Source of the DNA: Candidatus Muproteobacteria bacterium RIFCSPHIGHO2_01_FULL_65_16
GTDB lineage: Bacteria; Pseudomonadota; Gammaproteobacteria; Acidiferrobacterales; Sulfurifustaceae
Assembly (NCBI GenBank): GCA_001785175.1
Contig: MFSY01000040.1
Location: 1-10,629 of the forward strand
Direction: 5' to 3'
Length of the DNA stretch: 10,629 bases
The position numbers were made by a program, and so were the translations under genes. A model generated the notes under the pieces. It was not told where the DNA came from. It did no database searches and saw nothing but the letters and a program-made list of their open reading frames with translations. Numbering within the stretch: the stretch's first letter is position 1; each line of letters opens with the position of its first letter. Shown piece after piece: positions 77 through 10,629 of this stretch.

Positions 77-83
77 AAGATCA

Positions 84-166
84 TTTGTCGCAAAGACGCG
101 AAGACGCAAAGGAAGGCACGGAAAACTATGGGAAATCTTAGCGCCTTTGCGCCTTTGCGGCAAAAA
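84..166. repeat. Type A palindrome (CGCAAAG units), hisF-hisI gap
   Basis: The left arm (84-112) carries three units of the form CGC(A/G)AAG with 8-base spacing. The right arm (140-166) is its imperfect reverse complement, again with about three units. A 27-base loop separates them. The element fills almost the whole 93-base gap between the hisF stop and the hisI start. Its right outer end, read on the minus strand, is TTATAAGAGTTTTTGCCGC. That includes the last sense codon (TTA) and stop (TAA) of hisF, and the left end of the murA element is nearly identical. No coding content. Confidence 0.85.
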
Positions 167-169
167 CTC

Positions 170-931
170 TTATAACCTTACTTCGATCCCGGCCGCGGCC
201 AGGCGCTGCTTGGCCTGGCCGATGGTGAATTCGCCGAAGTGGAAGATGCTGGCGGCCAGCACCGCGTCGGCGTGGCCCTCGAGTATGCCCGCGACCAGGT
301 GGTCCAGATTGCCCACGCCGCCGGAGGCGATCACCGGGATGCCGACGGCGTCGCACACCGCGCGCGTGAGCGGCAGATCGAAGCCGTCGCGCGTGCCGTC
401 GCGGTCCATGGAGGTCAGCAGGATCTCGCCCGCGCCATACTCGGCCATTTTCCTGGCCCACGCGACGGCGTCGAGGCCGGTGGCCTTGCGACCGCCGTGG
501 GTGAAGACCTCCCAGCGGTCCGGACCGGCCTGCTTGGCGTCTATCGCCACCACGATGCACTGCGAGCCGAAGTGGTCCGCGGCCTCGCGCACGAGCTCGG
601 GGCGGGCGACGGCGGCGGTGTTGACGGCGACCTTGTCGGCGCCGGCGTTCAACAGGCGGCGCGCGTCCGCGACGCCGCGGATGCCGCCGCCGACCGTGAG
701 CGGGATGAACACCTGCGCCGCCACGTCCTCGACCACGTGCGCCATGGTCGCGCGGCCGTCGGAGCTGGCGGTGATGTCGAGGAAGGTAAGCTCGTCCGCG
801 CCCTGCTCGTCGTAGCGGCGCGCGATCGCGACCGGATCGCCGGCGTCGCGGATGTCAACGAACCTGACGCCCTTGACGACGCGGCCGTTGTCCACGTCGA
901 GACAGGGGATGATGCGTTTGGCTAAACCCAT
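170..931 (-). CDS. hisF: Imidazole glycerol phosphate synthase cyclase subunit HisF
   Basis: 253 aa, normal for the family. This (beta/alpha)8 cyclase uses ammonia from HisH to convert PRFAR to imidazole glycerol phosphate and AICAR. The general acid/base aspartates are visible as D12 (RIIPCLD) and D131 (VVAIDAK). The phosphate loops VGGGIR near 80 and SMDRDGT near 174-180 are also present, as is a late ASGG motif. The start is set at [12 protein letters not shown], the family's conserved N-terminus. The frame stays open 34 codons further upstream, but that stretch is repeat sequence (942-1045) and is not expected to be protein. There is no Shine-Dalgarno; the leader is a type A arm ending in ATTCATATCAA. 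The last codon and stop (TTA TAA) match a recurring repeat end. It lies after hisA and before hisI. Confidence 0.97.
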
Positions 932-941
932 TTGATATGAA

Positions 942-1045
942 TTTTTGACGCAAAGACGCGAAGGCGCAAAGAGAATAAACGATGAAACGAATTTGGCTTT
1001 GAATTTCTTTGCGTCTTTGCGCCTTTGCGTCAAACGATATTACTT
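942..1045. repeat. Type A palindrome, copy 1 of the hisA-hisF gap
   Basis: The left arm is 942-972 and the right arm 1006-1034, each with three CGC(A/G)AAG units at 8-base spacing and a TTGACGC outer edge. Bases 954-1045 are repeated at 1174-1265 with four mismatches in 92 (at 982, 996, 998 and 1000), a constant 220-base offset. The copy ends in TTACTT at 1040-1045. The same string forms the last Lys codon and stop of hisA in copy 2, so copy 1 either carries a hisA fossil or both share the element's own end. Confidence 0.88.
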
Positions 1046-1175
1046 AGGAACCTCTGAACAAGTCATCCCAGCGAAAGCTGGGATCCAGGAAGTATATGAA
1101 TTCTCTGGATTCCGGCTCCCGGCTTACCACATGCCGGGACAGGTCTCGCCGGAATGACGACCGGTACTTAATCAG
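1046..1175. repeat. VIPAKAGIQ-type element, copy 1 (right end shortened)
   Basis: About 130 bases starting AGGAACCTCTGAACAAGT and ending ACTTAATCAG. The ends are inverted (CTGAACAAGT against CTGATTAAGT). Inside is an 8-base hairpin, ATCCCAGC-gaaa-GCTGGGAT (1065-1084), and a second palindromic part with ATTCCGGC and GCCGGAAT. On the plus strand it reads as the familiar spurious peptide VIPAKAGIQ. Compared with the copy at 2849-2986 it lacks the outer part of the right inverted repeat and abuts a truncated type A copy. It is non-autonomous; no transposase is visible. Confidence 0.75.
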
Positions 1176-1265
1176 ACGCGAAGGCGCAAAGAGAATAAAC
1201 GCTGAAACGAATTTGACCTGGAATTTCTTTGCGTCTTTGCGCCTTTGCGTCAAACGATATTACTT
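1174..1265. repeat. Type A palindrome, copy 2, overlapping the hisA 3' end
   Basis: Near-identical to 954-1045 (88 of 92 bases). Its left arm starts within a unit: the outer TTTTTGACGCAA of copy 1 is missing and is replaced by the end of the VIPAKAGIQ-type element. Its right end contains the hisA stop codon (1260-1262) and last Lys codon (1263-1265). The loop sequence GAGAATAAACGCTGAAACGA is also nearly shared, so this is a duplication and not two independent palindromes. Confidence 0.88.
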
Positions 1266-2003
1266 GCTCAATTCGTCCGCGAGTTTCTGCGCGGCGGCGA
1301 GGTCGAGCGTGCCTTCGTAGATCGCGCGGCCGGTGATGGCGCCGACGATGCCGGAGTCGGCGACCGCGCACAGCCGGCGGATGTCGTCGAGGTCGTTGAT
1401 GCCGCCGGACGCGATGACCGGGATCGAGATCGCGTTCGCCAGGCGCACGGTGGCCTCGATGTTGACGCCGCTCAGCATGCCGTCGCGCCCGATGTCGGTG
1501 TAGACGATCGCGTCCACGCCGTCGTCCTGGTATTTGCGGGCGAGATCGCCCACGTCGTGGCCGGAGAGCTTGGACCAGCCGTCAATCGCCACCTTGCCGT
1601 CCCGGGCGTCGAGCCCGACGATGATGTGGCCGGGGAACTCGGCGCACACGTCGCTCACGAAGTGCGGGGCGTTCACCGCCTTGGTCCCGAGGATCGCCCA
1701 GCGCACACCCATGTCGAGATAGGCCTGGATCGTGTCCTCGTCGCGGATCCCGCCGCCCACCTGCACCGGCAGCTCGGGGAAGGCCTTGACGATCGCCTGG
1801 ATCGCCGGCGCGTTCACCGGCTTGCCGGCGTGCGCCCCGTTGAGATCAACGACGTGCAGGCGCCGGGCGCCGGCCTTGACCCAGCGCCCGGCCGTGGCCA
1901 CGGGATCGTCGGAAAACACCGTGGCCTGATCCATCTTGCCCTGGCGCAGGCGCACGCACTTGCCGTCCTTCAGGTCAATCGCGGGGATAATGAGCAAAGA
2001 CAT
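1260..2003 (-). CDS. hisA: ProFAR isomerase HisA
   Basis: 247 aa, the usual length. This (beta/alpha)8 barrel catalyses the Amadori rearrangement of ProFAR to PRFAR, the substrate of HisF-HisH. The conserved start [15 protein letters not shown] holds the first catalytic aspartate (D10), and VGLDARDG near 129-136 holds the second (D132). The phosphate-binding loops QVGGGIR (81-87) and [10 protein letters not shown] are present, and a late ASGGI follows. The ATG at 2003-2001 is the family start. Upstream is a type B repeat and AT-rich bases (ATTTATTTTTATG) with no Shine-Dalgarno. The stop TAA lies at the edge of type A copy 2. It lies between hisH and hisF, the usual order. Confidence 0.97.
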
Positions 2004-2009
2004 AAAAAT

Positions 2010-2138
2010 AAATGGACAGGATTAACAAGATTTTTCAGGATTCACAAGATTAAACCATTACGTGATAGAACCAAAAAGATGACTTAATTTTTGCCCTAAT
2101 CCTGTTAATCCTGAGAAATCCTGTTAATCCTGTCTATT
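2010..2138. repeat. Type B palindrome (CAGGATT units), hisH-hisA gap
   Basis: The left arm (2011-2053) has four (C)A(G/A)GATT units spaced 9-10 bases apart, including ACAGGATTAACAAGATT. The right arm (2094-2138) is the reverse complement with AATCCTGTTAATCCTG. A loop of about 40 AT-rich bases lies between. The arms are imperfect, with G-to-A changes mostly in the left arm. The same family fills the hisD-hisC gap. The 143-base gap holds nothing else I can recognise. Confidence 0.85.
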
Positions 2139-2146
2139 GCCTTTGT

Positions 2147-2797
2147 TCAGGCGCCGCCGTCCCAGGAAACGAAGTTCTCCAGTAATTTTAACCCGGCCGC
2201 CTGGCTTTTTTCCGGGTGGAACTGGACCGCGAAGATATTGGCGCGCGCGGCGGCCGCGGTGAAGCGGATGACGTATTCGGTCGTTCCCGCGGCGTCGGCC
2301 GGATCGGCGGATTCGGCGTAGTAGCTGTGCACGAAATAGAACCGCGAATCCCGCGGTATCCCGCGCCACAGCGGGTGCGCCGCCTCCTGGCGCACCTGAT
2401 TCCAGCCCATGTGCGGCACCTTGAGCGGACGGCCCGTGGCCGCATCCAGCATCTTCTCCGCCGGGAACCGGCGCACCGTTCCGCGCAGTATGTTAAGGCA
2501 GGGCGTTCCGCCGCCCTCCTCGCTGTATTCGTAGAGCGCCTGCAGCCCGAGGCAGATGCCGAGAAACGGCTTCTCGCGCAGCGCCTCCAGCAACGGCGCG
2601 CGCAGGCCGCCGCGCTCGAGCGCGGTCATGCAGCCGCCGATGGCGCCCTGGCCGGGAAAGACCACGCGGTCGGCGCGCCGGATGTCCTCGGCGCGCGCGG
2701 TGAGCCGGACCGACGCCTTCGGCGCGACGTGCTCGAGCGCCTTGCACACCGAGCGCAGGTTGCCCATGCCGTAATCCAGAACTGCGACGGTGGTCAT
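2147..2797 (-). CDS. hisH: Imidazole glycerol phosphate synthase glutaminase subunit HisH
   Basis: 216 aa, a class I glutamine amidotransferase that releases ammonia and channels it to HisF. The catalytic triad is visible as C82 (GICLGLQ), H194 and E196 (QFHPEKS). The conserved opening VAVLDYGMGNLRSV, the PGQGA loop near 48-52 and PHMGWNQV near 128-135 also fit. The ATG at 2797-2795 is set by this opening. The frame is open a further 11 codons into the repeat, which should be ignored. The start codon sits at the outer end of a type A arm (CATATGAATTC on the plus strand), with no Shine-Dalgarno. It lies between hisB and hisA. Confidence 0.97.
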   Translation of the reverse strand: MTTVAVLDYGMGNLRSVCKALEHVAPKASVRLTARAEDIRRADRVVFPGQGAIGGCMTALERGGLRAPLLEALREKPFLGICLGLQALYEYSEEGGGTPCLNILRGTVRRFPAEKMLDAATGRPLKVPHMGWNQVRQEAAHPLWRGIPRDSRFYFVHSYYAESADPADAAGTTEYVIRFTAAAARANIFAVQFHPEKSQAAGLKLLENFVSWDGGA

Positions 2798-2848
2798 ATG
2801 AATTCTTGACGCAAAGGCGCAAAGACGCAAAGAAAATAAAGTATTGAG
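2798..2848. repeat. Type A palindrome, left half (split by an insertion)
   Basis: Outer end CATATGAATTCTTGACGC, then three CGCAAAG units at 8-base spacing, then GAAAATAAAGTATTGAG. The partner arm is at 3001-3051, separated by the 138-base element at 2849-2986. The corresponding arm at 6181-6223 has the same outer end and the same GAAAATAAAGTATTGAG stretch but only two units, so the unit number varies between copies. Confidence 0.85.
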
Positions 2849-2986
2849 CTAAGGAACCTCTGAATAAGTAGTAAAGCTGTCATGCAAGCGAAGGCTGGCA
2901 TCCAGAATCGGCCTTACGGCCGATGCTTTTTCAAGGCCTGGATTCCGGCTTGCGCCGGAATGACGACTTAATCAGGACTTCCCTAA
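2849..2986. mobile_element. VIPAKAGIQ-type element with terminal inverted repeats, MITE-like
   Basis: About 138 bases inserted between the arms of a type A palindrome. The 21-base ends (2849-2869 and 2966-2986) match as inverted repeats at 15 of 21 positions, with core CTGAATAAGT against CTGATTAAGT. The interior has a hairpin ATCGGCC-ttac-GGCCGAT (2907-2924) and the GGATTCCGGCTTGCGCCGGAATGAC-type palindrome (2940-2964) typical of this repeat class. The second copy is at 1046-1175. The equivalent type A element at 6181-6303 has only about 14 unrelated bases at the same point, so it acts as an empty site. There is no transposase and no clear target duplication. Confidence 0.7.
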
Positions 2987-3000
2987 CGATCCGGGTGCAA

Positions 3001-3051
3001 AATTTTAACTCAAAAAAACTTTGCGCCTTCGCGTCTTTGCGTCAAAAATTA
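3001..3051. repeat. Type A palindrome, right half, abutting hisB stop
   Basis: Reads AATTTTAACTCAAAAAAAC, then three units of the reverse arm, then GCGTCAAAAATTATTATAAA running into the hisB stop codon. Bases 2997-3060 closely match 6238-6300 plus a few beyond. The match includes the outer TATTATAAAGCTC, of which TTATAAAGCTC here is hisB coding sequence (GAG CTT-type tail GA-L-stop). The stretch 2987-3000 between the insertion and this arm shows nothing recognisable. Confidence 0.82.
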
Positions 3052-3645
3052 TTATAAAGCTCCTTTCGTGGATGGAATCGTGTCCGCGGCGCGCGCGTCG
3101 GCCTCGAGCGCCATTCGCAGCGCCCGACCGAAGGCCTTGAACACGGTCTCGGCGATGTGGTGCGCGTTCTTGCCCCGCAGGCAATCCACGTGCAGCGTCA
3201 CCAGGGCGTGGTTGGTGAGGCCCTGGAAAAACTCCTGCACCAGGTCCACGTCGAAGTCGTTGACGCGCGCGCGCGGGAAGTTCACGTGGAATTCCAGCCC
3301 CGGGCGACCGGAGAGATCCACGACCACCCGGCTCAGCGCCTCGTCGAGCGGCACGTAGGCGTGCCCGTAGCGGCGGATGCCGCGCTTGTCGCCGGCCGCC
3401 CGCGCCAGCGCCTGGCCCATGGTGATGCCGATGTCCTCGACCGTGTGGTGGGCGTCTATGTGCAGGTCGCCCTCGGCCTTGATGTCCAGGTCCAGACCGC
3501 CGTGGCGCGCGACCTGCTCGAGCATGTGCTCGAGGAACGGCACGCCGGTCGCGAGCGCGCAACGACCGTCGCCGTCGAGGTTCACCTCGACGGTGATCCG
3601 GGTTTCCTTGGTTTTGCGCTCGACCCGAGCGCGGCGTTCGGCCAT
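3052..3645 (-). CDS. hisB: Imidazoleglycerol-phosphate dehydratase HisB (monofunctional)
   Basis: 197 aa, matching the single-domain dehydratase and not the bifunctional enterobacterial HisB, so histidinol phosphatase must be encoded elsewhere. The Mn-binding motifs of the duplicated fold are HHTVED (66-71) and AHHIAE (161-166), with LEHML near 38-42. It ends IPSTKGAL, a normal family C-terminus. The start ATG at 3645-3643 ([20 protein letters not shown]) fits the family. The much longer open frame continuing upstream through hisC is a shadow. It lies 41 bases after hisC, the one his junction without a repeat, yet I see no good Shine-Dalgarno there (GGACTAAACACCCCGATG). The final TTA TAA is repeated at the type A end behind hisG. 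Confidence 0.96.
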
Positions 3646-3686
3646 CGGGGTGTTTAGTCCGTTTCTGAACCGAAATAGTAGCGGAA

Positions 3687-4763
3687 TCAAAGCGCCTTTT
3701 CGAGCGCCGCCAGGAAGGCGGCGTTCTCGTGCGCCGTACCCACGGTGACGCGCAGGCAGTCCTGGAGCGGCCCGGGACCGTCCAGGTTCTTGATCAGCAC
3801 GCCCCGCTGTTTCAAGGCCGTGAATACGTCGGCGGCCGCCCGCCCCTGCACCTGGAACAGTATGAAGTTCGTCCGGCTCGGCCAGGCGCGCACGCCGGGC
3901 ATGGCGCCGAGGGCCGCATACAGCCGGTCGCGGTCGGCCCGGATGCGCGCCGCCTGGGCCTCGAGCGCGGCCGGGTGCGCCAGCGCGAACTCGGCGCTCG
4001 CCTGGGTGAGGCCGCCGATGTTGTACGGCAGGCGCGCCTTGTCGAACTCCGCGAGCCACACGGGCGCGCCCGCGAGGATGCCGAGCCGCAGGCCGGCCAG
4101 GCCCTGCTTCGACAGGGTGCGCATGACCAGCAGGTTGTCGAACGCCCCCAGGCGGTCCATGAAGCTCTCGCCACAGAAGACGTGATAGGCCTCGTCCAGC
4201 ACCACCAGCCCCGGGGCCTCGCGGATCAACGCCTCGACATCCGCGGCGGCGAACAGATTGCCCGTGGGGTTGTTCGGATAGGCGATGAAGACCACCGCCG
4301 GCCGGTGCTCCGCGAGCGCCCGGCGCATGGCCGCGAGGTCGAGCGCGAAATCCGCCGTCAGCGGCACGCCGACGAAGCGCACGGCGACGGTGCGCGCGAT
4401 CTGTTCGTACATGACGAAGGTCGGCGTGGGCGCGAGCGCGACCGCCCCCGGGCGCGCCAGCGCCAGCAGGACGATCTGGATCAGCTCGTCCGAGCCGTTG
4501 CCGAGCAGCAGCTCCGCGTCCGCCGGCGCCGCCAGGGCCGCGCGCAGGCGCTCCTTGAGCGCGCGCGCGGCCGGATCGGGATAGCGGTTGATCTCGACCT
4601 GGCGCAGCACCTCGAGCCACTCGTCCTTCAGCTCCTCCGGCCAGGAATACGGATTCTCCATGGCGTCGAGCTTGATCATCCCGCGCGCATCCGGGACGTG
4701 ATAGGCCTGCAGCGCCCGGATTTCCGGGCGGATCAGGCCTTCGACCTTTTCATCAATTGTCAT
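3687..4763 (-). CDS. hisC: Histidinol-phosphate aminotransferase HisC
   Basis: 358 aa, a fold-type I PLP enzyme that transfers the glutamate amino group to imidazole acetol phosphate. PLP-site residues are visible as N165 (YPNNPTG), D190 and Y193 (LDEAYHVF), the Schiff-base lysine K219 ([11 protein letters not shown]) and R226. The N-terminal substrate region [11 protein letters not shown] and the GNGSDELI loop (88-95) are typical. A late RVTVGT follows. The ATG at 4763-4761 gives a normal start; the leader CTTTTGTCCTTATG has no Shine-Dalgarno. It lies downstream of hisD and upstream of hisB. Paralogues such as cobD or aspartate aminotransferase are unlikely given length and position. Confidence 0.96.
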
Positions 4764-4775
4764 AAGGACAAAAGC

Positions 4776-4880
4776 GAATGGACAGGATTAACAGGATTTT
4801 TCAGGATTTACAGGATTAATTCGTAAAGCTTTTGGGTTTAATCCTGTTAATCCTGTTTAATCCTGTGAATCCTGTCTATT
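4776..4880. repeat. Type B palindrome (CAGGATT units), hisD-hisC gap
   Basis: The left arm (4776-4819) has four clean CAGGATT units at spacings 9, 10 and 9. The right arm (4838-4880) has four AATCCTG units as its reverse complement. The loop is about 18 bases. It is better conserved than the copy at 2010-2138. On the minus strand the right arm starts AATAGACAGG, and the TAG at 4878-4876 is the hisD stop codon, so the repeat ends the hisD frame. Confidence 0.88.
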
Positions 4881-6180
4881 TTTTTATCCGATACTCCGCC
4901 GAGCGCGCGTGCGCCTCCAGCCCTTCCGCGCGCGCGAGCACGGAGGCGGTCCGGGCCAGCGCCGTCGCGCCCTTCTCGGAGCACCGGATCAGGCTCGTGC
5001 GCTTCTGGAAATCGTACACGCCCAGGGGCGACGAGAAGCGCGCCGTGCCCGCGGTCGGCAGCACGTGGTTCGGGCCGGCGCAGTAATCGCCGAGCGCCTC
5101 GGGCGTGTTGCGCCCGAGGAAGATCGCGCCCGCGTGGCGCACGCGCGCCGCGACCGCCTCGGCGTCGTCGAGCGCGAGCTCCAGGTGCTCGGGGGCGATG
5201 CGGTTGGCGAGCGTCACGGCCTCGTCCAGATCGCGCACGCCGATCAGCGCCCCGCGCGCCGCGAGCGCGGCCGCGATGATGTCGCGCCGTTCGAGCGTGG
5301 GCAGCAGCCGCGCGACGGCGGCGCGGACCTTCTCGATGAACCCGGCGTCGGGGCTGATCAGGATCGCCTGCGCGTCCTCGTCGTGCTCGGCCTGCGCGCA
5401 CAGGTCCATCGCCGCCCATTCGGGATCGGTCCTGCCGTCGCACACGACGACGATCTCGGACGGCCCCGCGATCATGTCTATGTCCACGGCGCCGAACACC
5501 AGGCGCTTCGCCGTGGCGACGTAGACGTTGCCCGGGCCGACGATCTTGTCCACGCGCGGGACCGTCTCGGTTCCGTGCGCGAGCGCGGCGATCGCCTGCG
5601 CCCCGCCGATGGCGAACACCCGGTCCACGCCGGCGATCGCGGCCGCCGCGAGCACCATGTCATTCAGCTCCCCGTCCGGCGCCGGCGTGGCCATGATCAG
5701 CTCGCTCACGCCGGCGACCCGGGCGGGAATGGCGTTCATCAGCACCGACGACGGATACGCCGCCTTGCCGCCCGGGACATAAAGCCCGACGTGCTCGAGC
5801 GGCGTCACCCGCTGGCCGAGCATGGTCCCGTCGGCCTCGGTGTAGCTCCAGGATTCGAGCTTCTGGCGCTCGTGGTAGACGCGGATCCGATCCGCCGCCG
5901 TCTCGAGCGCCGCCAGCCGATCCGGCGCGACCGAGCGCCGCGCCTGCGCCAGCCGGGGGGGCGGGATTTCCAGCGCCGCGGCCGACGCCGGCTGGTGGCG
6001 GTCAAACCGGCGCGTGTAGTCGAGCAGCGCCGCGTCGCCGCGCGCGCGCACCTGCGCGATGATCTCGCGCACGTCGGCCTCGACCCCGGCCTCCGCCGTC
6101 CGGGCGCGATCGAGCAGGCGCGCGAGCTCGGCCGCGAAGCCGGGATCGGCGGTATCCAATACGCGCACGTCAATTTTCAT
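4876..6180 (-). CDS. hisD: Histidinol dehydrogenase HisD
   Basis: 434 aa, normal length. It oxidises histidinol to histidine in two NAD-dependent steps with a catalytic zinc. The catalytic pair is visible as E331-H332 (IAPEHLEL). Zinc ligands Q263 and H266 lie in [11 protein letters not shown]. The signature [15 protein letters not shown] (212-226) and GPSEIVV (239-245) are present. The ATG at 6180-6178 starts [10 protein letters not shown]. It directly touches a type A repeat end (CATATGAATGC), with no Shine-Dalgarno. The C-terminus SAEYRIKK ends at a TAG that lies within the type B arm. The stop may therefore be element-derived, although the length is still normal. Confidence 0.97.
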
Positions 6181-6303
6181 ATGAATGCTCGACGCAAAGG
6201 CGCAAAGAAAATAAAGTATTGAGACGGCAATTTCAGCGCAATGTTTTGACTCGGAAAAACTTTGCGCCTTTGCGTCTTTGCGTCAAAAATTATTATAAAG
6301 CTC
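6181..6303. repeat. Type A palindrome, hisG-hisD gap (uninterrupted)
   Basis: The left arm is 6190-6207 (two CGCAAAG units) and the right arm 6260-6284 (three units). The loop contains GAAAATAAAGTATTGAG and GACTCGGAAAAAC. Both halves match the split element of the hisB-hisH gap, including outer ends CATATGAAT on one side and TATTATAAAGCTC on the other. Here TTATAAAGCTC is non-coding, lying about 17 bases beyond the hisG stop. In the hisB-hisH gap it is the end of hisB. Confidence 0.88.
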
Positions 6304-6320
6304 ATTAACGCATATCAAGC

Positions 6321-6962
6321 TCATTCCACCGCCCCGGCGATGCGGTCAACGAGCGCCTTGAGCGGCGCGCGCTTCATCTTCAGCGCGGCCTTGTTCGCCA
6401 CGAGCCAGGCGCTGATGTCGGCGATGCGCTCGACGGCGATTAGGCCGTTGGCCTTGAGCGTCTGCCCGCTCGCGACCAGGTCCACGATGCGGTCGGACAA
6501 CCCCACCAGCGGCGCCAGCTCCATCGAGCCGTAGAGCTTGATGATGTCGGTCTGGATGCCCTTGGCGGCGAAGTGGCGCTGCGTGGTCTTGACGTACTTG
6601 GTCGCCACGCGCACGCGCGTCCAGCTCTCCGGGTCGTCGCGCGCCGCCAGGCTCGCGGGCTCGGCCACCATCATGCGGCAGCGGGCGATCTTGAGGTCGA
6701 GCAGCTCGTACAGGCCGTCGCCGTCGTATTCCATGAGCACGTCCTTGCCCGCGATGCCGAGATCGGCGGCGCCGAACTGCACGTAGGTCGGCACGTCGGC
6801 GGCGCGGATGACGGTGAGCTTCACGTCCGGCAGATTGGTGTCCAGGATCAGCTTGCGGCTCGTGAGCGGATCCTCCACCGGCTTCACCCCCGCGCGCGCG
6901 AGCAGCGGCAGACTCTCTTCCAGAATCCGCCCCTTGGACAAAGCGATGTTTAAAACAAGCAT
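6321..6962 (-). CDS. hisG: ATP phosphoribosyltransferase HisG, short form
   Basis: 213 aa. It catalyses the first and normally feedback-controlled step of histidine synthesis, joining ATP and PRPP. The N-terminus IALSKGRI, the two periplasmic-binding-like lobes and a PRPP loop near 143-169 ([19 protein letters not shown], then ASGQTL) are clear. The protein stops after the catalytic domains and lacks the C-terminal regulatory ACT-like domain of the about 300-aa form. Short HisG is known to need the HisRS-like partner HisZ for activity and histidine sensing. No hisZ is in the window. The start [12 protein letters not shown] is chosen by homology. Upstream is a type C palindrome with no Shine-Dalgarno (GAAAATAGTATG). 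It is the first his gene, 113 bases after murA. Confidence 0.96.
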
Positions 6963-6972
6963 ACTATTTTCG

Positions 6973-7063
6973 GAACCACGGATGAACGCGGATAAACACG
7001 GATAAAACGAATGGATGACAACCGGTTTTCATCAGTGTTCATCCGTGTTTATCCGTGGTTTTT
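6973..7063. repeat. Type C palindrome (CGGAT units), murA-hisG gap
   Basis: The left arm (6973-7007) has three units, ACGGATGA, GCGGATAA and ACGGATAA, at exact 10-base spacing. The right arm (7027-7063) is the reverse complement with GTTCATCCGTGTTTATCCG. The loop is about 20 bases. The arms begin with AACCACGGAT. It is unrelated in sequence to types A and B but has the same layout. No other content in the 113-base gap. Confidence 0.87.
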
Positions 7064-7075
7064 ATAACTAAAAAA

Positions 7076-8503
<1,428 letters not shown>

Positions 8504-8533
8504 AAAAAACAAAGGCCGCCGGAAGGCGGCCTT
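8504..8533 (-). terminator. Intrinsic terminator downstream of grxD
   Basis: On the minus strand, a perfect 9-base stem AAGGCCGCC / GGCGGCCTT with a TTCC loop (8512-8533) is followed by T-G-TTTTTT (8511-8504). It lies 22 bases after the grxD stop codon. This is a standard Rho-independent terminator and the only clear one in the window. Confidence 0.88.
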
Positions 8534-8555
8534 GTCGTCCGCGGCGCGCCGGGAC

Positions 8556-8870
8556 TCAGCCCGTCGCCCTGGCGACCAGTTTCTGCAGCTCGCCCTTCTG
8601 GTACAGCTCCGCCATAATATCACAGCCCCCGACGAGTTCGCCGTTCACGTAGAGCTGGGGGAAGGTCGGCCAGTTGGAGTGCTCCTTGAGCCCCTGGCGC
8701 AGGTCGGGATCGGCGAGCACGTCGTGGGACTGGTACTGCGCGCCGCAGGCGGCTAGCAGCTTCACCGCCCTGGCCGAGAAGCCGCACTGGGGGGACTGCG
8801 GGGTGCCCTTCATATAGAGCACGATCTTAGCCGCGCCGAGCTGTTGTCTGATCCGGTCCTGCACGTTCAT
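8556..8870 (-). CDS. grxD: Monothiol glutaredoxin, Grx4/GrxD family
   Basis: 104 aa, single thioredoxin-fold domain. The active site is CGFS at 29-32 within MKGTPQSPQCGFS, the hallmark of monothiol glutaredoxins that bind [2Fe-2S] clusters with glutathione, often with BolA partners. The glutathione-binding segments WPTFPQLYVNGE and GGCDI are present. The start is the ATG at 8870-8868 because GAGGAAG lies 6 bases upstream; a longer frame to 8900 is less likely. It is one of the few genes here with a good Shine-Dalgarno. It lies between mlaB and murA, where related genomes often have bolA; no bolA is seen. It ends at a strong terminator. Confidence 0.95.
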   Translation of the reverse strand: MNVQDRIRQQLGAAKIVLYMKGTPQSPQCGFSARAVKLLAACGAQYQSHDVLADPDLRQGLKEHSNWPTFPQLYVNGELVGGCDIMAELYQKGELQKLVARATG

Positions 8871-9019
8871 GTCGCTTCCTCGTGGTTCCGCCGTTAACAA
8901 AATGAATATGATCCTGAACCGCCAGGGCGCCAGGCCTGCCCCGGCAGGCTGTAAGGCGGGGGTCGCCAGGAACGGCGTTCTTCGTAAAATCTATCTCAAA
9001 ATGGTTTATGGTTTCAATG

Positions 9020-9093
9020 CAGGTTGAGTTAGGCGCGAAGCGCCGTAACCCAGCGGTTTGTTGGGTTTCGCTGCGCTCAACCCAACCTACCTG
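9020..9093. repeat. GTAGGTTGGGTT-type palindromic repeat
   Basis: The left arm starts CAGGTTGAGTTAGGCGCGAA. The right arm, on the minus strand, is GTAGGTTGGGTTGAGCGCAG followed by CGAAACCCAAC. The arms pair imperfectly over about 30 bases. It is a widespread intergenic repeat whose spurious translation contains WVERSETQ. Here it is nested inside the type D element. Confidence 0.8.
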
Positions 9094-9107
9094 GGCTGAA
9101 AGAATGA

Positions 9108-9192
9108 TTTTCACCGCAGAGAACGCAGAGTACGCGGAGAAAAATCCGTTTTTGTTTCAATAACTCCGCGCCTCTGCGCCTCCGCGGTGAGC
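9108..9192. repeat. Type E palindrome (CGCAGAG units)
   Basis: The left arm (9108-9143) has three units CGCAGAG, CGCAGAG, CGCGGAG at exact 9-base spacing after TTTCAC. The right arm (9162-9192) is the reverse complement with CTCCGCGCCTCTGCGCCTCC. The loop is about 18 bases. Same architecture as types A-D, nested in the type D interval. Confidence 0.86.
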
Positions 9193-9248
9193 AGACGGTT
9201 CTTCTGGCGGCCCTGGCGTCTTGGCGGTTCAAAATCATATTCATTTTG

Positions 9249-9545
9249 TTAAACAAAGGCCGAATCGAGCCCGCTCACGCGGATGATGTGGCGCACCTGC
9301 TCCGGCAGGTTGGCGAAGCGCAGCTCGCGCCCCGCGGCGCGGGCGCGTTCGCGCCACTCGAGCATGAGCGCCACCCCGGCGCTGTCCACGCGCGTCACGT
9401 TCTTGAGGTCCACGGTGAGCGCCTCCGGCCCGCCGTCGAGCCAGTCGCCGCTGCCCGCGAAAAACTGCGGCACGGTCTCGAACGTGAGCGCCCCGTTCAC
9501 CTCGATCGCGCCGTCGGCGCGCCGGACCACGCCGTTGCCGTTCAT
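9249..9545 (-). CDS. mlaB: STAS-domain protein MlaB of the Mla phospholipid transporter
   Basis: 98 aa, one STAS domain. It is predicted to bind the MlaF ATPase on the cytoplasmic side and regulate the MlaFEDB inner-membrane complex. The STAS signature appears as VDLKNVTRVDSAGVALMLEW, with S55 in the position of the conserved phosphorylatable or polar residue. The ATG at 9545 overlaps the mlaC stop as ATGA, so the two are translationally coupled. Sequence identity within small STAS proteins is low, so the name rests mainly on position after mlaD-mlaC. The stop TAA lies at the outer end of the type D inverted repeat. Confidence 0.88.
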   Translation of the reverse strand: MNGNGVVRRADGAIEVNGALTFETVPQFFAGSGDWLDGGPEALTVDLKNVTRVDSAGVALMLEWRERARAAGRELRFANLPEQVRHIIRVSGLDSAFV

Positions 9546-10243: not shown

Positions 10244-10629
10244 TCTTGGACTCGCCCGCGGCGAAGCTGGTCACGAACTGACCGATGAGCTTCTCGAGCA
10301 CGATGGCCGACTGCGTGAGGCGTATGGTGTCGCCCTCCTTCAGATACTCCTCCTCCGCCCCGGGCTCGAGCCCGACGTACTGCTCGCCGAGCAGGCCGGC
10401 GGTGAGGATCGTCGCGCTCGTGTCCGTCGGCAGGGTCTTGTAGCGGCCGTCCACGTCCATGGTGACAACCGCCTGGTACTTGCCGGTGTCGAAGGTGATG
10501 TCCGACACGCGCCCGATGCGCACCCCGGCCATGGTCACGGCGGCCTTGACCTTGAGGCCGCCGATGTTGTCGAAGCGCGCCTTGATCTTGTAACCGTTGA
10601 GCACGTCCGCGGTCGCGAGGTTGCCGACC
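10236..10629 (-). CDS. mlaD: MCE-domain protein MlaD, C-terminal fragment
   Basis: 130 residues of the 3' part are present; the N-terminal membrane anchor lies beyond the right edge. The frame is open to the window end (VGNLATADVLNGYKIKARFD at its start), so the internal GTG and ATG codons are not starts. The MCE domain is clear: FDNIGGLKVKAAVTMAGVRI, then GRVSDITFD, the LLGEQYVGLEPG strand and the C-terminal helix SAIVLEKLIGQFV. MlaD forms a hexameric ring in the inner membrane that passes lipids to or from MlaC. It ends FAAGESKSK. Confidence 0.95.
   Translation of the reverse strand, partial: VGNLATADVLNGYKIKARFDNIGGLKVKAAVTMAGVRIGRVSDITFDTGKYQAVVTMDVDGRYKTLPTDTSATILTAGLLGEQYVGLEPGAEEEYLKEGDTIRLTQSAIVLEKLIGQFVTSFAAGESKSK

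Follow-up and report, generated by a model that had tools for sequence, protein, structure and literature searches.

The question raised by this locus is what the palindromes between its genes are, and whether a single mechanism has made them. The stretch analysed, referred to here as the window, comprises 10,629 nt of contig MFSY01000040.1 from Candidatus Muproteobacteria bacterium RIFCSPHIGHO2_01_FULL_65_16, part of a genome (G000) that is 79% complete with 1.7 Mb in 135 contigs. Its genes, all on the minus strand, are taken by homology to be hisF, hisA, hisH, hisB, hisC, hisD, hisG, murA, grxD, a STAS gene, mlaC and mlaD. A preliminary description had recognised five families of palindrome here, types A to E, had considered them unrelated in sequence, and had proposed one mechanism for all of them. 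Our analysis showed that these are palindromes of tandem units, that several unit types share one design, and that they are intergenic and present in many copies. They are probably non-autonomous mobile palindromes similar to miniature inverted-repeat transposable elements (MITEs), with arms that are short tandem arrays changing by unit slippage. The proposal of one mechanism is only partly supported.

Genome-wide abundance in G000 was measured as double units against the reversed pattern, for types A, B, C and E, not D. Type A (CGCAAAG) gave 98 double units against 0, type C 209 against 0 and type E 77 against 5, while type B (CAGGATT) gave 40 against 0 as exact matches and 81 against 0 with at most one mismatch. 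For each of the four types counted, this far exceeds chance. A sixth type with a 7-bp unit, F (AGCAAGT), was found as a triple unit 101 times against 0. Elements with at least two units per arm were then listed in 345 kb of G000, a sample of 89 segments (C12, C45 and so on) of which the majority were picked around A, B, C or E matches and 10 contigs were picked for having no A double unit. The list holds 39 A, 17 B, 17 C, 11 E and 7 D elements, in which nested C and tandem B entries overlap.

The same layout was found by a detector that allowed periods of 3–20 bp, with order-2 Markov sequences as control. It reported 134 tandem-unit palindromes in four sets: 50 in the 345 kb of G000, 22 in the his loci of 18 relatives, 54 in 88 loci of viral contigs, and 8 in 80 named his loci. 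The controls of all four sets together gave a single palindrome (50 versus 1 for the G000 set). The period was 7–10 in 116 of the 134; in 17 others it was 14, 16, 17 or 19, consistent with two units, and in one it was 3. The G000 and viral sets are biased, having been picked by unit patterns, while the two his-locus sets were picked by HisD only; the latter showed the same spectrum, with 30 out of 30 at period 7–10, 14, 17 or 19. Many more unit types with the same layout, which the preliminary description had named as support for its view, are present in G000, in the his loci of relatives and in viral contigs. The 5′ arm is purine-rich in 49 of 50 elements of G000, 21 of 22 of the relatives, 38 of 54 viral ones and all 8 of the named his loci, counts in which copies within one family are not independent; among 135 other inverted repeats of the G000 and relatives' sets, 84 were purine-rich and 40 pyrimidine-rich. 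This purine bias is strong in the source family and weak in the viral loci.

All five types were located in the window. Type A occurs downstream of hisF at about 77–172 (plus-strand units at 89, 97 and 105, minus-strand units at 145 and 153) and twice in the hisF-hisA gap, at 940–1042 (RNA fold z −7.0) and 1175–1262, the two copies being 95.7% identical over 92 bp. Between these copies lies an X-shell MITE (1046–1172; ends AGGAACCTCTGAACAAG / CTTAATCAG) with an SFPRRRESR-type palindrome inside. Further A elements are found at 2795–3055 in the hisH-hisB gap, where another X-shell MITE with an SFPRRRESR-type palindrome (2851–2990) is nested in the loop, at 6178–6300 in the hisD-hisG gap, where four relatives also have an element, and at 8372–8503 in the murA-grxD gap. 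Type B is present at 2009–2140 in the hisA-hisH gap (z −8.7; the related genome G001 has the same element with its loop in this gap) and at 4777–4880 in the hisC-hisD gap, with 52-nt arms and z −10.1, and type C at 6972–7062 in the hisG-murA gap (z −7.0). Type D is split into a left half at 8893–8940, with outer end TTAACAAAATGAATATG, and a right half at 9203–9252. Nested in its loop are a VGWVERSETQ-type palindrome, read from the sequence at 9015–9095, and a type E element at 9108–9192 (z −8.3) of a subfamily common to several other G000 elements. The labels SFPRRRESR-type and VGWVERSETQ-type are presumptive names. The loop of 15–60 bases given in the preliminary description is not general: the D loop is 265 nt because it contains the VGWVERSETQ-type palindrome and the E element, and the A loop at 2833–3018 is 186 nt because of the MITE inside it. 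The grxD-STAS interval that holds these D and E elements and the further palindrome (8871–9248) is 0.38 kb here, and in many relatives it is about 2–2.7 kb of other sequence.

In the listed elements the arms face each other, while a wider set of plus-arm A chains contained 52 orphans, with no partner within 250 bp, against 64 complete ones. Long arrays of up to 13 or so units, as if one arm had expanded alone, were also seen: F at 50147–50236 of C30 in genome G020, B at 5–120 of C12 in G008, and A at 10349–10411 of C47 in G035.

Are the five families related in sequence? Read by eye, a unit head (A)CRC is common to A (CGCAAAG), C (CGCAGATGA, CACGGATGA), D (CGCCAAG, CGCCAGG), E (CGCAGAG, CACAGAG) and an ACACGGGGA type. 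These units differ in the tail, and the cap ACCRC is frequent among them, most A elements of G000 having GACGC instead. The head was not found in B, F, TTTCAGG, TGAATG, AGGAGTT, ATTTTGG or the other types. Thus, the five families are not all unrelated as had been described; four of them share a head and only B stands apart. This likeness suggests that A, C, D and E belong to one superfamily, and that B and the 7-bp types, with the same layout, are perhaps of other ancestry. The drift of type A toward type E reported at 8462–8492 is real, as the right arm of the A element there carries minus-strand E-type units at 8475 and 8483. Five more A elements (in segments C45, C60, C82, C129 and C132) have an E-type outer unit in one arm.

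Different palindromes also occupy the same outer shells. The X-shell MITE, whose ends are GGGAACCTCTGAATAAG and which is mostly flanked by TA, has as its core either the SFPRRRESR-type palindrome, as in the two window copies, or, elsewhere, an A core; this shell was also seen in segments C8, C16, C50, C74 and C129. Reading by eye showed that the core of C1 shells is a C or a VGWVERSETQ-type palindrome, and that of E1 shells an E or a VGWVERSETQ-type one. The VGWVERSETQ-type palindrome recurs in different MITE shells (segments C30, C51 and C60) as well as within the D element of the window. In C12 (about 8267–8600), C19 (about 25000–25300) and C30 (about 19080–19400), several C and D elements form mosaics at a single site, either nested or arranged head-to-tail.

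The his loci of 19 genomes of the same bacterial family as the source genome (hereafter the family) were then compared. HisD was located in 19 of 20 family genomes, and each gap was compared between genomes wherever the stretch included both of its flanking genes, with gap limits and family labels derived from scripts and simple patterns. A wider HisD search gave the 80 named loci, mostly gammaproteobacterial, of which bin FW104_bin.7 was nearest (71%), its values agreeing with those of relative G008. Most of the compared genomes are fragmented assemblies. However, G005, a single contig of 2.9 Mb with 99% completeness, also bears the elements, which indicates that they are not assembly artefacts.

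Seven of the nine gaps are occupied in some genome, and all seven hold at least two unit types; the hisB-hisC gap (0 of 18) and the mlaC-mlaD gap (0 of 13) had no element in any family genome. In the hisF-hisA gap, A was found in G000 and G013, B in G005 and G018, C in G015, D in G019, E in G001 and G011, and a TGAATG type in G003, but no tandem-unit type in G008, G012 or G014; in G007, G009 and G017 this gap is unscored, as the hisF match is a paralogue. The hisD-hisG gap measures 5–14 bp in 12 of the 19 genomes and 34 and 49 bp in two more; in five it is 111–144 bp long and holds an element. These lengths rest on alignment ends and may err by up to a few codons. The hisG-murA gap is 15 bp in G005, G011, G013 and G014, and holds A in G018 and C in G000, G015 and G016. 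The plain hisA-hisH gap of 61–63 bp in G011, G014, G015 and G019 has no recognisable counterpart in the element-bearing G005, G013 and G018, and was therefore replaced, not merely interrupted. All 88 elements with a loop of up to 130 lie outside open reading frames (ORFs) of coding composition. The elements are thus intergenic, are nested in one another and in other MITEs, and belong to different families in the same gaps of related species.

Evidence for copying came from alignments of entire elements. In G000, 347 element pairs align over their whole length, a count that includes overlapping and tandem entries and many pairs at 70–80% identity; the best separate pairs, among C1, D and E copies, are 85–92% identical with the loop. 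The D element in the hisF-hisA gap of G019 is the reverse complement of that in the hisC-hisD gap of G016 and G019, with homology from about AACCGCC to GGCGGT. These results show that families have been dispersed as whole elements, loop included, in both orientations. Homology typically extends past the units by about 5 bp in B, 13–16 bp in A, 26 bp in C1, 21–31 bp in D and 3–48 bp in E. The A ends read TA-TGAnTtnTTGA, and the B ends AATRG after an A-rich stretch. As the whole-element alignments with their defined ends show, the elements are small, have terminal inverted repeats and lack an ORF, like MITEs. Between orthologous elements the difference can be exactly one unit, in a single arm. 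The D elements of G005 and G011 are distinguished by one 9-bp unit of one arm and by one substitution, those of G016 and G019 by one such unit and two further differences outside.

On the interpretation that we favour, an enzyme acting in trans would copy or insert hairpin-forming DNA, and unit slippage with point mutation would then alter the number and the sequence of the units. Insertions at operon junctions would persist because they harm no gene.

Whether the families share a mobiliser was examined by co-occurrence over 116 relatives, 96 of them outside the family, with a threshold of at least two hits; shared ancestry inflates the p-values. Types A and E occurred together in 17 genomes, A alone in 4, E alone in 3 and neither in 92 (p=6e-14), and outside the family the corresponding numbers were 8, 1, 3 and 84 (p=1e-8). 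Type F was more weakly associated outside the family, with A (3/6/3/84 for both, A only, F only and neither; p=0.01) and with E (3/8/3/82 in the same order; p=0.02). The pairs A-B, A-C, B-C, B-E, B-F, C-E and C-F were not significant there, where only 2 genomes are B-positive and 3 C-positive. In a phylum sample of 398 genomes, C was found in 70, in many of these as one or two hits, and B in 2, G000 included. One relative, G045, stands out as a strong individual example: it had 45 A, 137 C and 85 E hits, in a family of which the six other genomes sampled had no A.

Two enzyme families were tested. Y1_Tnp, the domain of the RAYT transposases, was weakly associated over the 116 genomes (p=0.03 for A, 0.06 for B and 0.10 for E), and within the family its Spearman coefficient was 0.48 with A (p=0.03) and 0.50 with B (p=0.02). 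In 20 Y1_Tnp contexts of 3–11 kb, representing part of the hits, unit-type palindromes were present in four (G000, G001, G005 and G045), at least 1 kb from the gene and never on both sides. RAYT/Y1_Tnp was rejected as the mobiliser, the association being weak and the genes looked at not being flanked by elements. The IS630 transposase domain DDE_3 was likewise rejected as the parent enzyme, as it showed no association (p=0.42 for A and 0.22 for B) and within the family was found only in G000, G016 and, as a weak hit, G010. Neither of the two tracks well with the elements, as the expected co-occurring enzyme would.

Several results weigh against our interpretation. TA flanks both sides of 28 of 39 A elements; as a self-complementary dinucleotide that belongs to the end motif, however, it is no proof of target duplication, and among the 17 B elements no duplication was seen. 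The his loci are at most 85% identical in all genome pairs but one (88%), and the element junctions are therefore not base-exact. No mobiliser was found among the two enzyme families tested: Y1_Tnp is absent from the element-rich G007 (87% complete) and G008 (95%), and DDE_3 is missing from G005, which has 10 A, 111 B, 54 C and 19 E double-unit hits. In 9 widely spaced arm pairs, none could be recognised as autonomous from the first residues of the longest ORF, which were read without a family scan. Finally, B and C co-occur in 0 of the 96 genomes outside the family, a comparison of little power with 2 and 3 positives.

Other explanations share part of this evidence. If the elements were ordinary MITEs of several independent families, with a separate transposase for each and incidental tandem units, this would explain why C1, D1, D2, E1 and X have their own outer ends, why families differ in distribution, and why C1 and X shells, read by eye, are mostly TA-flanked like IS630/Tc1-like elements. 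The preliminary description had held that families with systems of their own would speak against it, and several of these outer ends do look like separate MITE ends. However, unrelated units that are all restricted to 7–10 bp, the common unit heads of A, C, D and E, the co-occurrence of A and E outside the family, and the absence of DDE_3 from most element-rich family genomes do not fit separate origins well, and we regard this explanation as rather unlikely. At the other extreme, one enzyme system might recognise the layout (hairpin-forming arrays of 7–10 bp units, the 5′ arm mostly purine-rich) and not the sequence, copy or build palindromes from many units, and spread them through operons and phage genomes, as a distinct class of mobile DNA; such a system is a speculative possibility and we consider it doubtful. 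The single mechanism first proposed is itself supported in part: the many unit types in one layout, the A-E co-occurrence outside the family and the weaker one of F with A and E agree with it. Against it, neither tested protein family tracks well with the elements, B and C are not found together beyond the family (among few positives), and a common unit head relates four of the five families.

The palindromes might also have arisen at their present sites without transposition, through slippage during replication combined with template switching from one arm to the other. One-unit length changes between orthologues, one-sided long arrays such as the 13 B units in G008, and arms that mix A and E units are what this would produce, but distant copies with common loops in both orientations speak against it as the sole source, though it may account for unit turnover. 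Nor do the variable A/G positions of the two arms match, being equal at 5, 3 and 5 of 14 where about 7 would be expected, so the arms seem not to be kept in register by correction. In-place origin is accordingly quite improbable. Even less probable, in our view, is that the elements are functional RNA hairpins under selection, as operon-internal mRNA stabilisers or translation leaders. Their folds are very stable (z −7 to −10 for five window elements), and 56 of 66 readable elements lie between co-directional ORFs, a proportion without a background rate (10 of the 88 lie between opposed ORFs and 22 were not judged; the ORF caller is simple and puts the window hisB and STAS gene on the wrong strand). 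But arm mismatches in the transcript comprise 58 G.U against 70 A.C, and this lack of a G.U bias gives no sign of selection for RNA pairing; in the window, Rfam yields nothing above a family's gathering score; and the identity of the units changes at a given site. Immediately upstream of the following start codon, a Shine-Dalgarno-like 4-mer was found in 0 of 45 element-bearing his gaps and 19 of 76 others, a contrast that looked significant. However, two gaps in which elements are never present account for most of the 19, and within the seven element-holding gaps the difference (0 of 45 versus 4 of 47) is not significant (p=0.12). A loss of this motif beside elements was therefore rejected.

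In the his loci of the family, genes that follow an element begin downstream of an A/T-rich stretch, which lies behind the hairpin and lacks a Shine-Dalgarno-like motif; in matched element-free gaps the motif is also rare. A conserved asymmetry between the two arms of type A did not hold up (4 of 39 elements). Single arms of A, B and E, one of each, fold no better than shuffles (z −0.40, 0.24 and −1.17), whereas each half of a repetitive extragenic palindrome doublet (REPIN) is a hairpin of 20–40 bp in its own right, with a GTAG or CGTC tag at its end.

Among known systems, MITEs of the Correia type and IS630-derived ones, including those of Thiomargarita (PMC4853749), are similarly short, non-coding, intergenic, inverted-repeat elements of high copy number, and the A, C1 and X ends here are often TA-flanked in the same manner. 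In our elements, however, the arms consist of tandem 7–10 bp units, unit types swap at one site, and no parent transposase was found in the two enzyme families tested. Repetitive extragenic palindromes (REP) and their REPIN forms with RAYT (PMC3733652, PMC3116915) are also dispersed extragenic palindromes with an inverted doublet, and share the weak Y1_Tnp association, but the single arms here do not self-fold and the Y1_Tnp genes looked at are not flanked by elements. BrickBuilt of Porphyromonas gingivalis is a tandem repeat within an intergenic MITE (PMC4596501); it has a 23-bp unit and one array, with no mirrored second arm. The TAACTGA heptamers resemble our elements in having 7-bp tandem units before start codons, 7-nt indel steps and a distribution scattered over phyla, but they are direct repeats, with a single inverted set reported, in the Beggiatoa genome (PMC4679880). 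The multicopy nucleotide sequences of Geobacter (PMC2996986, PMC2700814, PMC3543383) include many intergenic families, with palindromes and direct repeats of 6–42 nt and several per gap; a tandem-unit palindrome layout is not stated in the passages compared, the alignments being in the supplements. The literature searched, with subscription papers and supplements outside its scope, gave no description of this layout, and the unit sequences as text matched no paper.

The layout is not confined to bacterial chromosomes. In viral contigs, 69 stretches carried three A units and 19 carried three B units. When tested, 18 of 70 A matches and 5 of 17 B matches belonged to a palindrome, which leaves most outside one. 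One contig, L308 (IMGVR_UViG_3300037843_000663, 1–14211), carries 12 tandem-unit palindromes, which belong to three unit types, within 14.2 kb. It is a tailed-phage contig with capsid, portal, S49 peptidase and terminase domains in 4 of 10 proteins scanned. Judged against 12 hand-picked ORFs out of 48 listed, 10 of its elements are intergenic and 2 lie inside open ORFs, one of these two in the terminase gene, between the two domains of that gene. A second contig, L309 (IMGVR_UViG_3300035698_021332), has eight tandem-unit palindromes of several unit types in 7.3 kb, including CGCGAATGAA. No match was found for A in plasmid or phage records, nor for C or the X-shell MITE in plasmid records. Type E gave one partial match in plasmid records, and B one record with 3 places, from Candidatus Thiodictyon syntrophicum.

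One and the same layout appears with many different unit sequences; in related species, different types of it occupy the same gene junctions, and it extends to a phage genome. Should a single enzyme move all types, it would be a mobiliser that recognises architecture and not sequence. Even as ordinary MITEs, the elements give rise to spurious small ORFs in environmental genomes, and the his operon of this one family is a tractable system in which to follow the turnover of palindromes.

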